DNA from: Candidatus Hydrogenedentota bacterium
GTDB lineage: Bacteria > Hydrogenedentota > Hydrogenedentia > Hydrogenedentales > JAGMZX01
Direction of reading: 5' to 3'
Assembly (NCBI GenBank): GCA_018005585.1
Contig: JAGMZX010000050.1
Coordinates: 1 to 35,522, forward strand
Length of the DNA stretch: 35,522 nt
Below, piece by piece: positions 2,016-13,252 of this stretch. Made by a program: the position numbers and the translations under genes. Below the pieces are notes generated by a model. The model was not told the DNA's origin. It worked only from the letters and a program-made list of their open reading frames with translations, and did no database searches. The stretch's first letter is position 1; each line of letters starts with the position of its first letter.

Positions 2016-3449
2016 TTACTGCGACACCTCGTCGCGGACCGCGCCGAGGTCAGAAACCTTGAGCCCCTGCTCCGGAACCGGCGCCAGGCCGCTTTCGCCG
2101 GGAGACGCAGCGGTTACGTGGGCCTCTATGCGGCGGGGAACGGCGCTGGGTTTTCCCGTCGCGTCGCAGAGAAGGCGAACAACGACTTCCCCCTTTCGGG
2201 CAAGCGCGTCTTCCAGGTCGACGCTGCATGTACTCAGGCCCTGTTCATCACGGGCAACGCCCGCCTGACGCCCGACGGAGGTAGGCGCCAGCCGGGGCGA
2301 TTCCCAGCCGGCCGGCAGCGTGACCGTCAGAATGGCGTGTTCGAGCGGCAGGTTCTCCGCCCGCCGGCATGAAACCAGGATGACCGTAAGGCCAGAAGTA
2401 TCAAAGTGGTACGATGAACAGCGCGCTTCCGCCGTAGCCACGCCCGTGCGCGCTCTCTCGGACACCGATGTACTCTGCGCCGAAGTGCGCGCCGCTTCGC
2501 TGACCTGCCTCTCCGGTGTCACCGCGGATACCCCGGCTGCGCTGTCAGACCCGGTGGCAAGCGCATTGTGTCCCTGTTCCGAGAAGCAGGCAAGATGCTG
2601 GCCGCTTGCCCCAATTCCCGCCACGCCATGAGCCGCCTCAGCCGCGGCGCCGCTGTCCGCGCTGGCAACGGCGTATTCGGCGCCCCAGCGGGAGTCTGCG
2701 CAGACCCCTTCCACTCCCGCTCGCCACGCGAGCGGGCGCACGCTGGACGAAGTGGACCGAGCCGACGATACAAATGTCGAGGACAGGGACGCTACCCCCG
2801 CGCCGCTTCCGGTTCGCCGGACCCCCGCTCGCTGAACCTGCCTCCCCGGCTCGCTGACTGTTGCGTGGAGGTCCGCCGCCTGGGCCGCCGCCGTACCGCG
2901 CACCCGCGCCGCTGCGCCCTGCACTTTTCCGCCGGAAGATGAATGCGTAACAGAAGGTGCGGACCCGCCAATACGCTCGTGTACGGCAACGGGAATGGTT
3001 TCCGTGCCTGTCATGCGCGTGGAAGCGGACGCCTGTGCGGCGGTCCCACAGGCCGCCTGTAACGGGGCTGCCGCCGCGGCCATCCCTTCCAAGGTCTGCG
3101 GAGCTTCCGCCTGCTCAGGTCGCAGCCGGCCATCGGTGGTCTGCGGAGCGACCCGCCCCGCGAGCGAAGCGAGGCCATGCGGCTCGCCCATGGCTTGCGG
3201 CGCCGCGTCAGAGGGCGTCACCGCCGCCCTGTCCGCCGCACGAACCCGCTCCGGCTGACCGGCCTCGATGCTGACCTGGACCGAACCAATGTATGATGCG
3301 GTCCCCGCATCGCCTCTTTGCATGAACGCAAAGGAAACGAAAGCAGCGGTCATCATGCGCGGGAGCGCGCCCCTTGTTGCAGGGCGCGCCCCGTTCCCAC
3401 GGATGAGCGAATGAACGCGGTGCCCTTTCCCGCAGGGGAAGAACGGCAT
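2016..3449 (-). CDS. Unknown exported protein with Ala/Ser/Thr/Gly-rich middle and C-terminal beta-rich domain
   Basis: Not recognised. About 477 residues if translation starts at 3449, 9 nt after the stop of the upstream lipoprotein gene, where an AAGGA lies about 13 nt before the ATG. Another start at 3356 (MMTAAFVSFAFM) would place a short hydrophobic segment at the N-terminus. Residues of about 70-340 are low complexity, dominated by Ala, Ser, Thr, Gly and Arg with hardly any Lys. From about 345 to 455 the sequence becomes ordered and strand-rich (LTVILVSC, ILTVTLPAGWESP, EVVVRLLCDATG), resembling bacterial Ig-like or DUF11-like beta-sandwich repeats; that resemblance is inference. It is last in the four-gene operon and probably acts in the envelope with its neighbours. 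Confidence 0.6.
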   Translation of the reverse strand: MPFFPCGKGHRVHSLIRGNGARPATRGALPRMMTAAFVSFAFMQRGDAGTASYIGSVQVSIEAGQPERVRAADRAAVTPSDAAPQAMGEPHGLASLAGRVAPQTTDGRLRPEQAEAPQTLEGMAAAAAPLQAACGTAAQASASTRMTGTETIPVAVHERIGGSAPSVTHSSSGGKVQGAAARVRGTAAAQAADLHATVSEPGRQVQRAGVRRTGSGAGVASLSSTFVSSARSTSSSVRPLAWRAGVEGVCADSRWGAEYAVASADSGAAAEAAHGVAGIGASGQHLACFSEQGHNALATGSDSAAGVSAVTPERQVSEAARTSAQSTSVSERARTGVATAEARCSSYHFDTSGLTVILVSCRRAENLPLEHAILTVTLPAGWESPRLAPTSVGRQAGVARDEQGLSTCSVDLEDALARKGEVVVRLLCDATGKPSAVPRRIEAHVTAASPGESGLAPVPEQGLKVSDLGAVRDEVSQ

Positions 3450-5978: not shown

Positions 5979-6626
5979 CTATTTCGGCGTTTGGGCGTCT
6001 TTCGCCGCAACACCCTGCACGTCTTGACCCGCCGCCGGTTGCCCCGGAGCACCGCGCGTTCTCCGGCTCTGAGGCGGCTTGAGCGTTCTCAGTTCCGGTT
6101 CAGTTACCAGCTCGCGCCAGTCCTCGAATATCATGCGGCGGAGTTGCGGCCCCGAAGCCGCCTCGACAACTCGCAGGAAGAAACGTAACGCCCACAGAAG
6201 CCCCTCATCGTTCTTTGCCTGAATCACCACCCCGCGCAAGCCGACCTGAACACGCCAGGCCGTCGGCGCGCCAAACGATGGACACTCCTTGTCGAAAGGA
6301 CTGTGTTTTGGCCGCCACACCACCTTGAGCATCGCGTTTCCATGATAGAGGCTGGTCTCGATGACCCGTTCTTCCGGAATCTGTGCGTGCCGGGCCAGGG
6401 CAAGGGCGTATTCACGCACAACGCCATCCATTTCCGGGTCTTGCGCCTTGTAGTAGATGTAGGAGTTGCCCCTCGTGCTGAACGTGCAGAAGTCGCGCCC
6501 CAGATTGTGGTAAGTGGGTAGAGACGTTACCGCCTCTTTCCATGGTTGCGGACTATCGCTGTTCCATTCGCCCCACGACGCGCCCGCGGCCAATAAAATG
6601 AGAAGTCCCGTCACACTCTTCCGCAT
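5979..6626 (-). CDS. Secreted protein of unknown function, first gene of envelope operon
   Basis: Not recognised. 215 residues. A short signal peptide (MRKSVTGLLILLAAGASWGEW) predicts export with cleavage after Ala-Ser-Trp-Gly or nearby. The mature part has a compact alpha/beta look up to about residue 180 (NSYIYYKAQDPEMDG, AMLKVVWRPKHSPF, WRVQVGLRGVVIQAK). It then has a low-complexity, Pro/Arg/Gln-rich tail. There are two Cys in the mature region, so a disulphide is possible. The ATG at 6626 is preceded by GAAGGGG 7-8 nt upstream. It is the first gene behind the promoter at 6737-6765 and lies 139 nt upstream of the first lipoprotein gene. Confidence 0.7.
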   Translation of the reverse strand: MRKSVTGLLILLAAGASWGEWNSDSPQPWKEAVTSLPTYHNLGRDFCTFSTRGNSYIYYKAQDPEMDGVVREYALALARHAQIPEERVIETSLYHGNAMLKVVWRPKHSPFDKECPSFGAPTAWRVQVGLRGVVIQAKNDEGLLWALRFFLRVVEAASGPQLRRMIFEDWRELVTEPELRTLKPPQSRRTRGAPGQPAAGQDVQGVAAKDAQTPK

Positions 6627-6676
6627 GCCATACCCCTTCTTCGCAATTGCGCCCCTTCAGACCTCCCGGTCTAACG

Positions 6677-6732
6677 CGCACTTCCCATCGCAATACTCGT
6701 ATACAGTTTCCCCTTACTAAACGGGAAGTGCG
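6677..6732. repeat. 10-bp inverted repeat in the 5' leader of the envelope operon
   Basis: CGCACTTCCC (6677-6686) and GGGAAGTGCG (6723-6732) are perfect inverted copies 36 nt apart. The predicted transcription start (about 6730) lies at the outer arm, so the mRNA would begin with a 5' stem, which could stabilise or attenuate it. The loop holds a further short TTCCC/GGGAA pairing. Confidence 0.5.
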
Positions 6733-6736
6733 TGAC

Positions 6737-6765
6737 ACTATGACATACGCCGGGCTGTATGTCAA
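6737..6765 (-). promoter_or_regulatory. Predicted promoter of the four-gene envelope operon
   Basis: On the minus strand a perfect TTGACA (6765-6760) is followed after 17 bp by CATAGT (6742-6737, 4 of 6). The -35 box overlaps the stop codon of the upstream ADP-ribosylglycohydrolase gene, so the envelope operon appears to have its own promoter. Confidence 0.5.
6741..6764. promoter_or_regulatory. Perfect dyad operator candidate
   Basis: TGACATAC, 8 bp, GTATGTCA: two perfect 8-bp inverted arms that fill the space between, and overlap, the -35 and -10 boxes of the predicted promoter. The spacing and place fit a dimeric repressor site. The same hairpin could also help end transcription of the upstream gene, but no U-run follows. 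Confidence 0.5.
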
Positions 6766-7742
6766 CCTCCTTCTGAAATATCCGTAGCCGGCCTGGCGTC
6801 CTTACAGGAAAGGCCCGGATTCTGTGCCAGGCGGCACAACTGCGCACCCAGCGCCGCGATGGCCTCGCCCTCGTGCAACCGGGTGCGCCAAGGCGCCGGA
6901 ATTCCGTTTTCTCCGTAGAATACCCCGGCGATCTGGCCGTAAATTGCGGCGGTTGTATCCGCGTCGTCGCCAAGGTTCGCCGCCATCAGGCACCCTTCGC
7001 GGAAATCCGCGCTGTTGTGAAAAGCCCACAACGCCGCCTCGAGGGTCTGCGCCACATAGCCCGTGCCACGGATCTCGGGCGGCTGCTTTTCCTTGAACGA
7101 GCCCCGCGTCACGGCATCGATCTCCGGGCATAACCGGTGCTCCTGCCAGTACCCGGGCGCCGGGGCATACCGGTCCGACAGCAGCGCGTCTTTGCTGGCG
7201 CCGCTCGCGGCGCCGGCGATCAGGCCGCCGAAATAGCGGCACGCGTCCACCGCGATTACGGAGCCATGCGTCGTACGCGAACTGTCGCCGGACAGCTCAA
7301 TGGCCTCGGCCGGCGCGTGCGCGAACGCCAGCGGCACGGGCGCGAGGCGCATGAGCGAGCCGTTGCCGGACGCGCGCACGCTCGTGGAACCGCTGTACGG
7401 CGCGCCGGTTTCTTCATACCGGCGCAGCGCCATACTGGTCGTCATACCGATGTCAAAGCATCGGCCCGTGCTGCTCAGGTACCCGTCCCGATACCAGCGC
7501 ACATATCGCCGCATCTGGTCCGCCGGGTCAAAGGCGCGGCATTCGACAAGGCTTTCCGCCAGGCACAGCGCCATCGACGTGTCGTCGGTCCATTGGCCGG
7601 GCGCCAATTGGAACGGCCCGCCGCCGGTCATGTCCTCGATCGGCGCAAACGTGCCCGGACGCATGAATTCGAGGGCGGTCCCCACGGCGTCCCCCACGGC
7701 CAGCCCCAACAAACAACCGCGATATCGTTCCGTGCGCTCCAT
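6762..7742 (-). CDS. ADP-ribosylglycohydrolase family protein (DraG/ARH3-like)
   Basis: Predicted to hydrolyse ADP-ribose from modified proteins, nucleic acids or O-acetyl-ADP-ribose with two Mg ions. The 326-residue length is typical. The metal-binding signatures are present in order: GLAVGDAVG near the N-terminus, WTDDTSMAL at about 51-59, and [18 protein letters not shown] near 256-273. [10 protein letters not shown] and [19 protein letters not shown] are also typical of the family. The start at 7742 has AAAGGGG 8 nt upstream. It diverges from the DUF488/dual-OB operon across 163 bp holding a dyad. Many relatives are housekeeping enzymes, some oppose ADP-ribosylating toxins; the context leaves the substrate open. 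Confidence 0.92.
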
Positions 7743-7800
7743 GCGTCATGCCCCTTTCTCGCGGAATCCCGGGAACCACGGCGTTCCATCCCGGCACCCT

Positions 7801-7826
7801 TGTATTTTCGCTCGTGACGAAATACA
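7801..7826. promoter_or_regulatory. Dyad between divergent ADP-ribosylglycohydrolase and DUF488 genes
   Basis: TGTATTTTCG, 7 bp, CGAAATACA form inverted arms matching except for one extra T in the left arm. A weak plus-strand promoter (TTGTAT at 7800-7805 region, 17 bp, TACACT) overlaps it, so it is a plausible operator or part of a divergent promoter. Confidence 0.35.
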
Positions 7827-7877
7827 CTGACCATTGAATTCTGCCAAGAGGATACTCTGTCTCGCGGTGGGAGGGAA

Positions 7878-7913
7878 ATGCGTTACATGGGCTTGATGCA
7901 ACGTTATGGATGA
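7878..7913 (+). CDS. Possible 11-residue leader peptide overlapping the DUF488 start
   Basis: A GGGAGGG followed closely by ATG opens an 11-codon frame (MRYMGLMQRYG) whose stop TGA lies 8 nt inside the DUF488 gene, whose own ATG at 7906 lacks a clear ribosome site. Termination at this stop could load ribosomes on the overlapping ATG. This is an inference from layout alone. Confidence 0.25.
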   Translation: MRYMGLMQRYG

Positions 7914-8508
7914 GATTTTCACTATAGGACATTCCAACCACGCGCCGGATGCCTTTCTCGACCTGTTGTCCGCGCACCGCGTATCCGCAATCGCGGATGT
8001 GCGGTCGAACCCCGTCAGCCAGTTTGCACCGCACTTCAGCAAGGGCGCATTCGAGACGCTCCTACGCGACGCGGATGTCGAATACCAGTTTCTCGGCAGG
8101 GAACTCGGCGCAAGACGGTCCGAGGAAAGCTGCTACGTCGGCGGGCAGGCCAAGTACTCTCTGATCGCGCGGCTGCCCATTTTTCAATCGGGCCTCCAGC
8201 GCGTGCTCGCGGGCGCGGAACAGTACCAAGTGGCGCTGTTGTGCGCGGAAGCCGACCCGCTCGCGTGCCACAGGACCATTCTGGTCTGTCGCGAACTGGG
8301 CAAGCTGCGCCCGGGTTTGCGCATCACGCATATTCTGCCCGACGGCAACGCGGAATCCCACGAGGAAGCCGGTCAGCGGCTGGTCCAACTGCACGGGCTC
8401 GCACACGAGCTGTTCGGCAACCTCGCCACCGAAAACGGATTGCTGGAAGAGGCCTACAACCGGCAGGCGGAGAAGATTGCCTACCGGAGGCCGTTGGAGG
8501 AGTTATGA
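7906..8508 (+). CDS. DUF488 family protein (long form)
   Basis: A 200-residue DUF488 protein. The opening IFTIGHSNHAPDAF, the D-V-R-S-N-P at residues 31-36 and the C-x7-C-H-R at 113-123 (LLCAEADPLACHR) are family hallmarks. The Cys-His-Arg cluster and Asp31/Arg33 are likely active-site or ligand-binding residues, but no DUF488 reaction is firmly known to me. About 60 extra C-terminal residues are helical. It is the first gene of a three-gene operon; its stop overlaps the next start in an ATGA, indicating translational coupling. It sits opposite an ADP-ribosylglycohydrolase. Its ATG has no good Shine-Dalgarno sequence, see the small frame at 7878. Confidence 0.88.
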   Translation: MDEIFTIGHSNHAPDAFLDLLSAHRVSAIADVRSNPVSQFAPHFSKGAFETLLRDADVEYQFLGRELGARRSEESCYVGGQAKYSLIARLPIFQSGLQRVLAGAEQYQVALLCAEADPLACHRTILVCRELGKLRPGLRITHILPDGNAESHEEAGQRLVQLHGLAHELFGNLATENGLLEEAYNRQAEKIAYRRPLEEL

Positions 8509-8939
8509 AGCTCTTTTCCATCGGGTTTACAAAGCGGTCCGCCGAGGACTTCTTCACGCGGCTCCAAGAGGCGGGCGTGCGCCGGGTCGTGGACGTGCGC
8601 CTCAACAACACGTCGCAGATAGCCGGCTTCGCCAAGTCGCGCGAATTGCAGTATTTCCTGCGGGTCATTGCAGGCATCGACTACGTGCATATGCCGGTAT
8701 TCTCCCCAACGCAAGACATTCTCGACGCCTACAAGAAGAATAAGGGCTCCTGGGACGCATACGAACGGGAATTCCGCGGTTTGCTGAAGAAACGCCGCAT
8801 CGCGGACAGCGTTATCCAATCTTTACGGGATGGGGATTGCCTCCTGTGCGGCGAGTACACACCGGAGCATTGTCATCGCCGCCTCGTGGCAGATTACGTG
8901 CAGGCGCGCCGGAAGGACGTCGAAATCGTGCATCTGTGA
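8505..8939 (+). CDS. DUF488 family protein (short form)
   Basis: A 144-residue second DUF488 protein, paralogous to the one just upstream. It keeps the same landmarks: KLFSIGFTKRSAEDF at the N-terminus, D-V-R at residues 30-32 and C-x7-C-H-R at 115-125 (LLCGEYTPEHCHR). It lacks the C-terminal extension of its neighbour and diverges strongly elsewhere, so it is more likely a partner subunit or a second specificity than a recent copy. The ATG overlaps the upstream stop (ATGA) and GGAGGAG lies about 7 nt before it. The next gene starts 2 nt after its stop. The three genes are therefore almost certainly co-expressed. Confidence 0.88.
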   Translation: MKLFSIGFTKRSAEDFFTRLQEAGVRRVVDVRLNNTSQIAGFAKSRELQYFLRVIAGIDYVHMPVFSPTQDILDAYKKNKGSWDAYEREFRGLLKKRRIADSVIQSLRDGDCLLCGEYTPEHCHRRLVADYVQARRKDVEIVHL

Positions 8940-8941
8940 GC

Positions 8942-9661
8942 ATGACCCGCTTCGTTATTCTTGCCAATTCATGGAAGCATCGGGACTGGTGCCTTGCCGG
9001 AATCGACCTGGACACCGGCAAGTGGGTGCGACCCGTCACCGAACTCGAGGACGGCCGCGTGCCGAAAACGCGCATGGACCTCGACGGATATTTCCCGGCC
9101 CTCCTCGATGTGCTGGAAGTACCGCTGGACGCCACAGGCCCCGATTTCGGCTTCGAGTGCGAGAACAGGACCATCCTGCCGGGAAAATGGCGGCGCGTGA
9201 CCCGGCTGACGCCGCAGGACGTCCTGAAATATGCGGCGCGGCCGGACGTCGTGCTCCACAACCAGAAGAAGTACATGTCTGTTGGGGAACTGCATCGCAA
9301 ACCGTTCCACCAACGGACAACGCTGCAACTGGTCAAGACCGATAGCTTTCGCGTGCGCGACGCGCGAAGAGCAGACACCGCCAAACCCAATTGGACCGGC
9401 ATTATCATGTCGGGGGAGAAGGAACTGGAAGTCAAGATAACCGACCCGGTGTACTCGAACAAACTGAACCGAGGCTGGAAAGCTTGCCGGAAATGCCTGT
9501 TGACGATGAGCCTGGGCATGCCCTACAAACCGCCCGAATGGGGCGAGAAGGCCAAGCCCGTCTGCTGGAAGCTCATTGCGGGCATCCTCGAATTGCGCGC
9601 GCGGCATTCCATTGCCGCGTTCTTCTCGCGCGCAAAGGCCTTCATCCACGGAACCGGATGA
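8942..9661 (+). CDS. Dual OB-containing domain protein
   Basis: A 239-residue protein whose beginning (RFVILANSWKHRDWCLAGID, then TGKWVRPV) matches the pattern I associate with dual OB-fold proteins often annotated only as hypothetical. Two consecutive beta-barrel-like segments are suggested, about 1-110 and 115-215. The second contains W-K-A-C-R-K-C and a WGEKAKPVCWKLIAG stretch. OB folds often bind nucleic acids or nucleotides, which would make this the binding arm of the DUF488 pair; that is inference. The start at 8942 follows the upstream stop by 2 nt. An upstream-extended reading frame only overlaps the preceding gene and is not favoured. Confidence 0.75.
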   Translation: MTRFVILANSWKHRDWCLAGIDLDTGKWVRPVTELEDGRVPKTRMDLDGYFPALLDVLEVPLDATGPDFGFECENRTILPGKWRRVTRLTPQDVLKYAARPDVVLHNQKKYMSVGELHRKPFHQRTTLQLVKTDSFRVRDARRADTAKPNWTGIIMSGEKELEVKITDPVYSNKLNRGWKACRKCLLTMSLGMPYKPPEWGEKAKPVCWKLIAGILELRARHSIAAFFSRAKAFIHGTG

Positions 9662-9671
9662 TCCGCGTGGA

Positions 9672-9763
9672 GCGCGCCAAGTCGTGGCGCCCGCCAAGGC
9701 CTCGGAGGAACTGGTCGCCGAGGCGATTCGTCTGCTGGCCGAGGCCCCCTCCGCCTGGGACCC
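9672..9763 (+). pseudogene. Fragment of the TPR gene (duplicated, decayed)
   Basis: About 92 bp closely resembling 11119-11210 inside the intact TPR gene. The translated pieces correspond as ARQVVAPAKASEELVAEAIR against ARQAVAPAKASEELIAEAIH, with only a handful of base differences over the first 70 bp. Neither the signal/membrane segment nor the TPR repeats are present, and the frame soon ends. It starts 11 nt after the dual-OB stop codon. The fragment and the intact gene flank the toxin-antitoxin segment as imperfect direct repeats. Confidence 0.8.
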
Positions 9764-9889
9764 GTGCGCGCATTTCTCCACCCATGCTACGATAGGAATC
9801 GCAATGAGCCTAACGCATACGGACGAACATGAAGACCGTGTCTTCAATCGGGAACCTTGGAGTGTACGCAGCCCAATGGACGGGCTATG

Positions 9890-9905
9890 ATAGGAAGATT
9901 CCTAT
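9890..9905. repeat. Palindrome
   Basis: ATAGGAA-GA-TTCCTAT, two perfect 7-bp arms with a 2-bp centre. Possible protein-binding site ahead of the toxin-antitoxin genes; a half-similar ATAGGAA also occurs near 9791. Confidence 0.35.
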
Positions 9906-10026
9906 GCTGACCCGTATAAGACGCCCGAATAAACGCCCGAGTCCGCATCAAGAGACCGGAAGAACAGGCTTTATCACTCCCTCGATACGATATCTCGAGG
10001 CGTCTCATGCGGAAAGAAAGCAAGAA

Positions 10027-10055
10027 ACCCGCATCTTATGCGGGTCCATCCGATT
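10027..10055. terminator. Hairpin, probable (bidirectional) terminator
   Basis: ACCCGCAT-CTT-ATGCGGGT forms a perfect 8-bp stem with a 3-nt loop. On the plus strand a weak T-rich tail (GATTCTTTT) follows after about 6 nt; on the minus strand a TTTCTTGCTTTCTTT tail follows directly. It could end the DUF488/dual-OB transcript. Confidence 0.5.
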
Positions 10056-10137
10056 CTTTTGAGGTTCTTGCAGTCGCTGGCGCCCGCGCGAGAAAGAACA
10101 GGCTGACGCGGAGCCAGAGAGAAGGCAGACAGATGAC

Positions 10138-10614
10138 ATGACCAGAAGGCCGATGCGGGTGTACGCGGATACTTCGGTGTTCGGCGGCGTGTTCGATGAG
10201 GCGTTCGCGTTTTCAAGCCGTGCGTTCTTTGAGCAAGTGCGCAGGAACCGATTCGAACTCATTTCCTCGGCCTTGGTTGTCGACGAACTCGCGGACGCGC
10301 CCGGGAAGGTCCGGGATTTCTTTCGGGAACTTGCGAGCCATGTACATATCCAGGCCATATCGGCTGACGCGGTCCGGCTGCGTGATGCCTATCTGGCGGC
10401 TGGCATTGTCGGACCCGCTTCCAGGGACGACGCCCAACACGTGGCCTTGGCGACGGTCCTGGACTGTTGGACGATTGTGAGCTGGAATTTCAGGCACATC
10501 GTGCACGCACGCAAGATTCCATTGTACAATGGGGTCAACAGAGGACAGGGTTACAAGGAGATCGCGATCCATACCCCGCAAGAGGTGATTGATTATGAGA
10601 ACGAAGAAGTTTGA
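10138..10614 (+). CDS. PIN-domain ribonuclease toxin (VapC-like)
   Basis: A 158-residue PIN-domain protein expected to cleave RNA with a Mg ion held by acidic residues. The conserved positions are visible: Asp11 in VYADTSVFGG, Glu50 in VVDELADAP, Asp97/Asp98 in RDDAQHVALATV, and Asn117 in SWNFRHIV. Length is typical of VapC-type toxins. An AGAGAAGG lies about 13 nt before the ATG; a second ATG at 10153 just before VYADTS is an alternative start. Its last 20 nt overlap the next gene, a small protein likely to be its antitoxin. Toxin-first order is the reverse of most vapBC loci. Confidence 0.88.
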   Translation: MTRRPMRVYADTSVFGGVFDEAFAFSSRAFFEQVRRNRFELISSALVVDELADAPGKVRDFFRELASHVHIQAISADAVRLRDAYLAAGIVGPASRDDAQHVALATVLDCWTIVSWNFRHIVHARKIPLYNGVNRGQGYKEIAIHTPQEVIDYENEEV

Positions 10615-10780
10615 CTGCGTCGAGATGAAGCGTAAGGGAGCGCAGAAGGTATATGAGGCCACGAAGGGCATGACAGTTGCGGAAGAGGTCAAGTACTGGC
10701 GCAAGCGGACAAGAGAAGCCCGTCGGTGGCTCGCGGCGGGAACTGTCTCCAAACCCCTGTCCAGAACCGCCGGCCGTTAG
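10595..10780 (+). CDS. Putative antitoxin of the PIN toxin
   Basis: A 61-residue basic protein. AGAGGT 8 nt upstream fixes the ATG at 10595, inside the toxin gene (20-nt overlap), which implies coupled translation. The sequence carries F-D-C-V-E-M-K, K-G-M-T and Y-W-R-K-R-T-R-E, features shared with the next small gene. I do not recognise a ribbon-helix-helix or AbrB fold. Assignment as antitoxin rests on size, overlap and pairing with a PIN toxin, not on a named family. Confidence 0.7.
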   Translation: MRTKKFDCVEMKRKGAQKVYEATKGMTVAEEVKYWRKRTREARRWLAAGTVSKPLSRTAGR

Positions 10781-10791
10781 CCACAAAAACG

Positions 10792-11007
10792 ATGAACGCC
10801 TTTGACTGCAGGGAGATGATGCACGAAGGGCAGGAAGAACTTCACAGGAAACTGGATGGCATGACAGCCCAAGAGCGGCGGGAATACTGGCGCAGGCGGA
10901 CCGAAGACTTGCGGCAGCTTCAGCAGCAGACTCGCATCAAGCAACGCCACGCGCAGGCCCTGGAGGAACTGAACGCGAGTCGCCCAACGGCCACGCCTCG
11001 CGAGTGA
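10792..11007 (+). CDS. Second antitoxin-like small protein (no toxin attached)
   Basis: A 71-residue protein homologous to the preceding small protein: F-D-C-R-E-M-M against F-D-C-V-E-M-K, G-M-T-A-Q-E against G-M-T-V-A-E, and E-Y-W-R-R-R-T-E-D-L-R against K-Y-W-R-K-R-T-R-E-A-R. It begins 11 nt after the upstream stop and has no PIN gene of its own. Its C-terminus is longer and Gln/Arg-rich. No clear Shine-Dalgarno sequence precedes the ATG. It may be a duplicated antitoxin, an anti-addiction copy, or a leftover of a lost second module. Confidence 0.65.
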   Translation: MNAFDCREMMHEGQEELHRKLDGMTAQERREYWRRRTEDLRQLQQQTRIKQRHAQALEELNASRPTATPRE

Positions 11008-11025
11008 AGTGCGCGGGATTCGTCT

Positions 11026-11955
11026 TTGAGCAGATCACGGGACGCGAATTTGCGGCATCATCGGTTCATATGGACGATTGCGGCGGTGTTCATGGCCGCG
11101 GCGGCGATTGTGGTCGGCGCGCGCCAGGCCGTGGCGCCCGCCAAAGCCTCGGAGGAACTGATCGCCGAGGCGATTCATCTGCTGGCCGGCGACCCTTCGG
11201 CATGGGCGCCGCGGACGCGCTCGTCCATCCGCGCGGCGGCCGTGCTGGTCGAACGCGGCGAAATCCGCACGGCGGAAGGCTATTATGTGCTGGCGCTGCA
11301 ATACATGCGCGAGCACAACGCCACCGGCGCCGAGGCGCTATTCAAGCGCGCCATAGCCGTGCGCCCGGACTGGAGCTGGCCCTACGTGGGGCTGGGCACG
11401 CTCCTCGGCGGCTACATGATGGGCCGCACGCAGGGCGCCATCGCCGCATTGCGCAAGGCCGCCGAACTCGACCCGCAATGGAGCCGGCCGCACGACAGCC
11501 TCGCGATCATCCTGCGCCTCGACGGGCGCCTCGAAGAGGCCGAGCAGGAGGCCGTCAAGGCGCTTGAACTCGACCCCGGCAATGTCGCGACGAACACCAA
11601 CTACGCGAATCTGCTCGTGGCCATGAACCGCTTCGACGAGGCGGAGCAGTACTACGTCAAGGCGATCACCCTCGACCCGGGGCATTCCAAACCGTATTAC
11701 AACCTCGCGTGCTTGTATAGCTTGCGCGGCGCAACGGCGGACGCGGTCAAGAACCTCGAGGAAGCCATCAAGCGGGCCGGAAGTCTGCGCGTGGAAGCGC
11801 GGATAGACCCCGACTTCGACCCCATCCGCGAGAACCCCGCGTTCCGCCGCCTGGTCTATGTTGAGGAATTCCGCCACGAGACGCTGGAAGAAGACGCGGC
11901 GCCCTCGACGCTGGACGCCGACGCGCCCCCGCCCGCGGAAGCGGCGGACCTGTGA
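11026..11955 (+). CDS. Membrane-anchored tetratricopeptide repeat protein
   Basis: A protein of about 309 residues starting at TTG 11026; no upstream ATG keeps the frame. A single hydrophobic segment at about 14-33 (FIWTIAAVFMAAAAIVVGA) anchors it or exports it. Three to four TPR units follow, at about 105-135, 140-172, 174-206 and 208-240; examples are HDSLAIILRLDGRLEEAEQE and NYANLLVAMNRFDEAEQYY, each ending in the ALELDP-type consensus. The acidic Ala/Pro-rich tail is disordered. TPRs mediate protein binding, so this is likely an assembly factor; partner unknown. Part of its 5' region is duplicated at 9672-9763, upstream of the toxin-antitoxin genes. Confidence 0.8.
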   Translation: MSRSRDANLRHHRFIWTIAAVFMAAAAIVVGARQAVAPAKASEELIAEAIHLLAGDPSAWAPRTRSSIRAAAVLVERGEIRTAEGYYVLALQYMREHNATGAEALFKRAIAVRPDWSWPYVGLGTLLGGYMMGRTQGAIAALRKAAELDPQWSRPHDSLAIILRLDGRLEEAEQEAVKALELDPGNVATNTNYANLLVAMNRFDEAEQYYVKAITLDPGHSKPYYNLACLYSLRGATADAVKNLEEAIKRAGSLRVEARIDPDFDPIRENPAFRRLVYVEEFRHETLEEDAAPSTLDADAPPPAEAADL

Positions 11956-11986
11956 CCCGCGCACTCTTGCGCGCAAGGAGGGACCC

Positions 11987-13252
11987 ATGACGGAACCGAC
12001 CATTACCTGTCCCCAGTGCCGCTACGAGATCAAGCTTACGGAGTCGCTCGCCGCGCCGCTGCTCGAAGCCACGCGCCAGGAATATGAGAAGCGCCTCGCG
12101 AAGAAAGACCTCGACGTGGCCAGACGCGAGGACGGCCTGCGCAAGCGCGAGGAGGCGCTCGAAAAGGCCAGGGAGTCCATTGACAGCCAAGTCGCGGAAA
12201 GACTGCGCCAGGAACGGGCCGGGATCGCCGCCGAGGAAGCGAAGAAGGCCCGGCAAGCCCTGAGCACCGACCTCGAAGAAAAAAACCAGGCCATCACCGA
12301 ACTCCAGGGCGTGCTGAAGCAGCGCGATGAGAAACTCGCCGAAGCGCAAAAGGCCCAGGCGGAGCTCATCCGCGCGAAGCGCGAACTGGACGACGCCCGG
12401 CGCGAACTGGAACTCACCGTCGAGAAGCGCGTTCAGGAATCGCTCGACGCCGCGCGCGCACAAGCGCGCAAGGAGGCCGAAGAATCGCTCCGGCTCCGCG
12501 TGACCGAAAAGGAACAGACCATCGCCGCGATGCAGAGGCAAATCGAGGAATTGAAGCGGAAGGCCGAGCAGGGCTCGCAGCAGCTCCAGGGCGACGTGCA
12601 GGAAGCCGAACTCGAGCAGGTGCTGTCCGCAAAGTTCCCGATGGACACCATCGCGCGGGTGCCGAAGGGCGAATTCGGCGGCGACGTGGTGCATGGCGTC
12701 GCGGGGCCGCTCGGGCAGGAGTGCGGCACTATCCTGTGGGAATCAAAGCGCACCAAGAACTGGAGCGACGGCTGGCTGCCCAAACTGCGCGACGACCAGC
12801 GCGCGGCCAAGGCGGACATCGCCGCCATCGTCACCCAGGCGCTACCGCGGGAAATCGAGTCCTTCGACCTGAAAGACGGCGTCTGGGTCATCCATCCGCG
12901 CGTGCTGCTGCCCGTCGCCGTCGCGCTGCGGCATACGCTCGTCGAAGCGGCCACGGCCCGCCAAGCCAGCGAAGGCCAGCAAACCAAGATGGAACTGGTG
13001 TACCAGTACCTGACGGGACCGCGATTCCGCCAACGCGTCCAGGCCATCGCCGAAGCCTTTTCTTCCTTGCAGGAAGACCTTGACAAGGAAAGGCGCGCGA
13101 TTATGAAGCAATGGGCCAAGCGGGAAGAACAGATCGAACGCGTAATCCAGGCGACCGTCGGCATGTACGGCGACCTGCAGGGCATCGCGGGCAAAACCCT
13201 CCAGGAAATTGACGGGCTGAGCCTGCCCGGCCTTGAGGACGGAACGGCGTAA
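11987..13252 (+). CDS. DUF2130 protein: zinc-ribbon-like start, coiled coil, nuclease-like core
   Basis: 421 residues with the order typical of DUF2130. The N-terminus has a C-P-Q-C pair (Cys8, Cys11). A long charged coiled coil spans about 28-200. A conserved core of about 203-345 includes GGDVVH (Asp233) and WESKRTKNWSDGW (251-263). C-terminal helices follow at about 350-405. The spaced Asp and the E-x-K at 252-254 recall PD-(D/E)xK nucleases, so a DNA-related function is a reasonable inference, not proven. The start at 11987 has a near-perfect AAGGAGGG 4-5 nt upstream; an upstream frame extension lies inside the TPR gene and is rejected. It follows the TPR gene by 31 nt and may be cotranscribed with it. 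Confidence 0.85.
   Translation: MTEPTITCPQCRYEIKLTESLAAPLLEATRQEYEKRLAKKDLDVARREDGLRKREEALEKARESIDSQVAERLRQERAGIAAEEAKKARQALSTDLEEKNQAITELQGVLKQRDEKLAEAQKAQAELIRAKRELDDARRELELTVEKRVQESLDAARAQARKEAEESLRLRVTEKEQTIAAMQRQIEELKRKAEQGSQQLQGDVQEAELEQVLSAKFPMDTIARVPKGEFGGDVVHGVAGPLGQECGTILWESKRTKNWSDGWLPKLRDDQRAAKADIAAIVTQALPREIESFDLKDGVWVIHPRVLLPVAVALRHTLVEAATARQASEGQQTKMELVYQYLTGPRFRQRVQAIAEAFSSLQEDLDKERRAIMKQWAKREEQIERVIQATVGMYGDLQGIAGKTLQEIDGLSLPGLEDGTA

Follow-up and report, generated by a model that had tools for sequence, protein, structure and literature searches.

A PDC-M45-type cassette of two DUF488 proteins and a dual OB-domain protein in Candidatus Hydrogenedentota, possibly directed against phages or mobile DNA

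Genes at the locus

We analyzed a contig of a Candidatus Hydrogenedentota bacterium (assembly GCA_018005585.1, contig JAGMZX010000050.1, positions 1 to 35,522); this whole stretch of 35,522 nucleotides is called the window here. Three adjacent genes on its forward strand encode two DUF488 proteins (B and C) and a dual OB-domain protein (DuOB), next to a divergent ADP-ribosylglycohydrolase (ARG) gene. The features are listed below.

6762..7742, minus strand: ARG gene, divergent neighbor (Pfam, 4.9e-80)
7801..7826, no strand: dyad TGTATTT-12-AAATACA in the divergent spacer, arms of 7
7906..8508, plus strand: gene B, DUF488 protein of 200 amino acids (P0001), PDC-M45B type (Pfam DUF488, PADLOC)
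8505..8508, plus strand: ATGA overlap at the B/C junction, a spacing of -4 (sequence)
8505..8939, plus strand: gene C, DUF488 protein of 144 amino acids (P0002), PDC-M45C type (Pfam, PADLOC, AF2)
8942..9661, plus strand: DuOB gene, dual OB-domain protein of 239 amino acids (P0003), PDC-M45A type (Pfam, PADLOC, AF2, Foldseek)

Both DUF488 proteins match the Pfam family DUF488 (PF04343) over their full length, B with 7.6e-20 and 72.2 bits and C with 1.7e-23 and 84.0 bits, both above the curated cutoff of 22.2 bits. Gene C also matches DUF488-N3a (2.8e-9). The third gene, which starts after a gap of 2 nt, has a full-length match to Pfam DuOB (PF22557; 8.9e-39, 134.1 bits, cutoff of 27). The Pfam results thus bear out a sequence-only reading of this DNA, which had proposed two nonidentical DUF488 genes and a dual-OB gene. 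No further DUF488 or DuOB genes were found elsewhere in the source genome (6.08 Mb in 288 contigs).

The same reading had pointed to a dyad shared by the divergent genes. It exists at 7801-7826, but it is not significant, as 39 of 500 letter shuffles of the spacer reach arms of 7. Its half-sites TGTATT/AATACA persist in a sister species of the same genus, and the dyad is possibly a regulatory site. Searches for consensus promoters, terminators, Rfam families, and tRNAs found none.

Downstream, at 10138-10780, a PIN-like gene overlaps an open reading frame of 61 amino acids that has no Pfam match. Of the toxin-antitoxin locus claimed earlier, the overlapping gene pair remains, but the PIN_3 score of 20.2 bits lies below the cutoff of 27, and the assignment as a toxin-antitoxin pair is tentative. 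The pair is not conserved with the trio, which argues against its being part of the same system. A 115-nt stretch from the 5' end of a TPR gene is duplicated (81%) at 9669-9783 and 11116-11230. The first copy directly follows the DuOB stop codon, and the two copies flank the PIN pair, as though the pair had been inserted at this point.

Match to PDC-M45

The three window genes pair one to one with all three models of PDC-M45 in PADLOC-DB: DuOB with PDC-M45A (1.7e-25), B with PDC-M45B (3.2e-70), and C with PDC-M45C (5.1e-62). They are adjacent and codirectional, and we found no difference from PDC-M45. PDC in PADLOC stands for phage-defense candidate. The trio almost certainly belongs to PDC-M45 and hence to a candidate anti-phage system of a public catalogue. 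It had been put forward as undescribed, which no longer holds, since PADLOC already lists it; in the literature searched, no paper names PDC-M45 or the trio as such.

Distribution and coinheritance

Within the phylum, DuOB has a patchy distribution, being present in 11 of 68 genomes. In 9 of the 10 phylum genomes besides the window's, both DUF488 genes adjoin DuOB; in the remaining one the contig ends inside DuOB. A genome-wide scan with gene C as the query gave at least 566 relatives, and we examined the best 80 loci. By profile, 56 of these carry the full trio, 12 carry B and C, 1 carries C and DuOB, and 11 carry C alone, with some of the incomplete loci resulting from contig ends. Two loci scored as B and C (L089 and L051) carry a divergent DuOB, so 56 is a lower bound. 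The trio thus co-occurs across genomes of many phyla.

Two gene orders predominate among the trios, DuOB-B-C (40 loci) and B-C-DuOB (15 loci), the window having the latter, minority order. The tight coupling claimed from the ATGA overlap and the 2-nt gap recurs in the relatives: among 55 trio loci drawn from many phyla, 53 have a B-C junction of at most 20 nt, with -4 as the most frequent spacing, and this exceeds chance. Pairwise distances across 53 loci are correlated between the three proteins (B-C, 0.80; B-DuOB, 0.84; C-DuOB, 0.74; permutation maximum, 0.145), values that include a contribution of shared species history. We placed 118 DUF488 sequences in a tree, where the B proteins all fall into one group (SH-aLRT of 87) and the C proteins all fall into another (SH-aLRT of 100). 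The tree mixes sequences from Planctomycetota, Acidobacteriota, Chloroflexota, Myxococcota, Nitrospirota, Pseudomonadota, Thermodesulfobacteriota, Cyanobacteriota, and Spirochaetota, and this intermixing of phyla suggests horizontal spread. Taken with the invariant residues described below, the trio is one conserved, coinherited unit with intact cysteine sites.

The sister species has the same divergent layout, with a decayed cassette. Its gene B contains an in-frame TAG, the match to gene C ends at residue 109, short of the cysteines, and there is no DuOB; unrelated DNA lies in between. This decay shows that the cassette is dispensable. In a single case (L017:15368-16510), DuOB lacks its last quarter and runs in frame into B, possibly a gene fusion or a decayed copy.

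No fourth gene is conserved near the trio beyond local synteny, for example in Caldilineaceae. The neighbors are mostly ordinary metabolic genes. These would suit a housekeeping operon of nucleotide or phosphate metabolism with no role in conflict or repair, as would the resemblance of the predicted fold of gene C to general phosphatases (see below). We consider such a role very unlikely, because the patchy presence, the decay in the sister species, the intermixed phyla, and the carriage on plasmids and prophages are not housekeeping traits.

The ADP-ribosylglycohydrolase gene

The divergent ARG reported earlier is present on the minus strand as claimed, and its nearest NCBIfam model is Tri1, below that model's cutoff. 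In a published set of neighborhoods (PMC9503650), more than half couple ARG with rhodanese-phosphatase genes. The window resembles these ARG-centered anti-ADP-ribosylation systems in having an ARG beside genes that are probably of rhodanese-phosphatase type. It differs from them in that DuOB is present, that their Nudix/WYL regulator or chaperone has no counterpart among the scanned neighbors (5982-13249), and that the linkage is not conserved.

ARG is found near the trio in the window and in the sister genome (divergent in both), in L014 (about 7 to 8 kb off), and in L058. In L058 the ARG gene (2362-3357) follows C after 14 nt, as a fourth gene of the operon would. Outside the genus of the window, ARG adjoins the trio only there, in 1 of 80 loci; with the window left out and 4,500 genes per genome assumed, 1 tight neighbor was observed and about 0.06 expected (P = 0.06). 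ARG itself is present in 60 of the 68 phylum genomes, compared with 11 for the trio. A single ADP-ribose-processing system made of ARG and the DUF488 pair, for which the published coupling, the divergent pair in two species, and the L058 arrangement speak, is therefore highly improbable given these two surveys, and ARG was rejected as a partner of the trio. It is probably a mere neighbor outside the system. A DarT-like gene had also been suggested as something to look for near the locus, and neither DarT nor another ADP-ribosyltransferase was matched among the scanned window neighbors.

Active-site residues and predicted folds

The D-V-R and C-x7-C-H-R motifs described in the sequence-only reading are present in both DUF488 proteins. 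In B they are D31-V32-R33 and C113-x7-C121-H122-R123, with E115 and P118, and in C they are D30-V31-R32 and C115-x7-C123-H124-R125, with E117 and P120. D-x-R and C-x-E-x2-P-x2-C-H-R are kept without change in 63 sequences of B and 72 of C, apart from three Pro-to-Ala changes in C. The C proteins have an additional invariant cysteine, C112, in all 72 sequences, which was absent from the earlier description.

No solved relatives were found by sequence. In the AF2 model of gene C (pLDDT, 89; pTM, 0.85), C115 ends the strand 111-115, and a helix starts at H124-R125. Its top solved match in Foldseek is the Clostridioides difficile tyrosine phosphatase 8dhi (probability, 0.96; E, 0.017), and the same list includes a Sulfolobus PTP, Mycobacterium PtpB, a Neisseria phosphatase, and unrelated Rossmann-like proteins. 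RapZ is not among the top 50 matches. Pfam gives weak matches to Y_phosphatase3 (E, 0.01) and BLH_phosphatase (E, 0.18). The models thus weakly point to a tyrosine-phosphatase-like fold for C, with the best Foldseek E value of 0.017 and the Pfam matches below usual significance. The CX5R signature of protein tyrosine phosphatases is absent from C, which has C115-x9-R125 in place of this loop.

DUF488 has reportedly been assigned by Burroughs and Aravind (2023) to the rhodanese-phosphatase superfamily, in a clade of RapZ-C, DUF488, and DUF4326. The modeled fold and cysteine topology of C would fit this placement: the cysteine shared by the superfamily lies at the end of a strand before a helix, and proteins of the PTP fold are the top structure matches. 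DUF488 here differs in lacking the CX5R P-loop, and the similarity is below usual significance. No established reaction for DUF488 was found in the literature searched.

The AF2 model of DuOB (pLDDT, 92) matches tandem-OB DNA binders in Foldseek, namely HIN, Teb1, POT1, and RPA (best E, 2e-3), in agreement with the earlier claim of a dual-OB protein of nucleic acid type. The model suggests a tandem-OB fold like that of HIN, POT1, and RPA, and DuOB is probably the nucleic-acid-binding subunit.

Prophage, plasmid, and repair settings

Trio carriers include prophage or viral contigs and plasmids. Most of 24 viral-contig loci have DuOB and C followed by a protein with mSLOG and DUF4326 domains in place of B, and many of these adjoin a terminase large-subunit gene. 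This form (L109-L121, L148:7371-9054) lies mostly in prophages, beside terminase genes. It shares DuOB and a C-type DUF488, tightly coupled, with the window and has the mSLOG-DUF4326 protein where the window has a B-type DUF488. In PADLOC, its DuOB and C are matched and the mSLOG-DUF4326 gene has no match. E. coli SC487 carries a DuOB-DUF488-DUF4326 trio at an e14-like site, where it adjoins icd, is flanked by integrase genes, and has mcrA in its vicinity, and a 4.2-kb Citrobacter plasmid carries DUF488 with DUF4326.

DUF4326 belongs to the rhodanese-phosphatase superfamily and has been proposed to process ribose-linked phosphates (PMC9503650). Its C-terminal end, C-x-C-x-P-x2-C-H-G-D, is reminiscent of the DUF488 motif; a profile comparison of the two families aligned only the P-x2-C-H stretch, with a probability of 16%. 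Sequence resembling DUF4326 is found in 1,680 phage records, of which many are T4-like.

On plasmid pAt1 of Allochromatium tepidum, the trio is embedded in a CRISPR region of type III-B, which has Cmr, Csm6, Csx16, and Cas1, and AbiE adjoins a lone C gene elsewhere. The near/far tally of PADLOC families around the trio counts families, not genes, and enrichment in defense islands is not decisive. The earlier suggestion of a conflict system is plausible in that a conserved unit is also carried on prophages and plasmids and once in a CRISPR island, and we consider it likely that the trio is an accessory conflict module.

Lone C genes are found in another setting. In a formaldehyde-detoxification island of IncC and IncHI2 plasmids, uvrA is followed by a C-type DUF488 that shares 54% identity with gene C of the window, and uvrB is also present when a longer stretch is considered. 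On an Aeromonas IncP plasmid a C relative and uvrB are neighbors, and another formaldehyde dehydrogenase is encoded close by. Such lone C genes by uvrA or uvrB were seen in L130, L131, L137, and L140, in formaldehyde islands of IncC, IncHI2, IncR, and IncP plasmids. A lone C gene of Shinella lies near rarA. The uvr setting hints that DNA lesions or ends may be substrates of C-type DUF488.

These observations raise the alternative of a DNA repair or lesion module, in which DuOB would recognize DNA that is damaged or single-stranded, leaving the DUF488 proteins to remove adducts or mend blocked ends, with the cassette spreading through stress tolerance. The uvr, formaldehyde dehydrogenase, and rarA neighbors favor it, as does the predicted similarity of DuOB to RPA/POT1-type proteins, and lone C genes accompanied by excision-repair genes are as suggestive of repair as of defense. 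However, the plasmid copies are close kin within the C clade (support of 99), so they may stem from one recruitment; no uvr gene lies beside a trio except a uvrA fragment in L032; and the full trio and its prophage form are found in conflict-type settings. We regard the repair module as unlikely, though less so than the housekeeping operon.

Proposed function

We propose that the window carries a PDC-M45-type mobile accessory cassette, directed most likely against phages or mobile DNA, with a nucleic-acid-directed cysteine mechanism; taken as a whole, this proposal has slightly less than an even chance of being right. The PDC-M45 matches, the conserved trio, the codivergence of its proteins, the invariant residues, the resemblance of the DuOB model to DNA binders and of the C model to PTP-fold phosphatases, the mobility and conflict settings, and the patchiness in the phylum support this proposal, and the low significance of the phosphatase-fold matches, the missing PTP loop, the metabolic neighbors, and the lone C genes by repair genes stand against it.

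In the proposed mechanism, DuOB would bind an unusual nucleic acid, such as a single strand, an end, or damaged DNA, and present it to paired cysteine enzymes of rhodanese/tyrosine-phosphatase type. The C-type DUF488 would be the constant catalytic partner, and the second enzyme would vary, being a B-type DUF488 or, in prophages, the mSLOG-DUF4326 protein. The conserved cysteine (C115 in C and C113 in B) would sit in a loop that connects a strand to the helix beginning with Cys-His-Arg and, with D-x-R, carry out phosphate or group transfer on sugar or phosphate ends. It is an even bet that B, C, and DuOB form one physical complex. Somewhat more tentatively, the DUF488 proteins may be cysteine phosphotransfer or end-processing enzymes acting on nucleotides or nucleic acid.

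A broader reading, which we consider doubtful and less probable than the repair module, is that C-type DUF488 is a general processor of nucleic acid lesions or ends across the antiviral trio, the prophage trio, and the plasmid formaldehyde/excision-repair islands. If it is true, one reaction would link bacterial defense with DNA repair. The trio is compact, conserved, and easily assayed, with a prophage version in E. coli, and the lone C genes on plasmids offer a second, independent route through formaldehyde or UV survival. Should the same cysteine be needed in both settings, this would give a function to a common and widespread family and a testable bridge between defense and repair.
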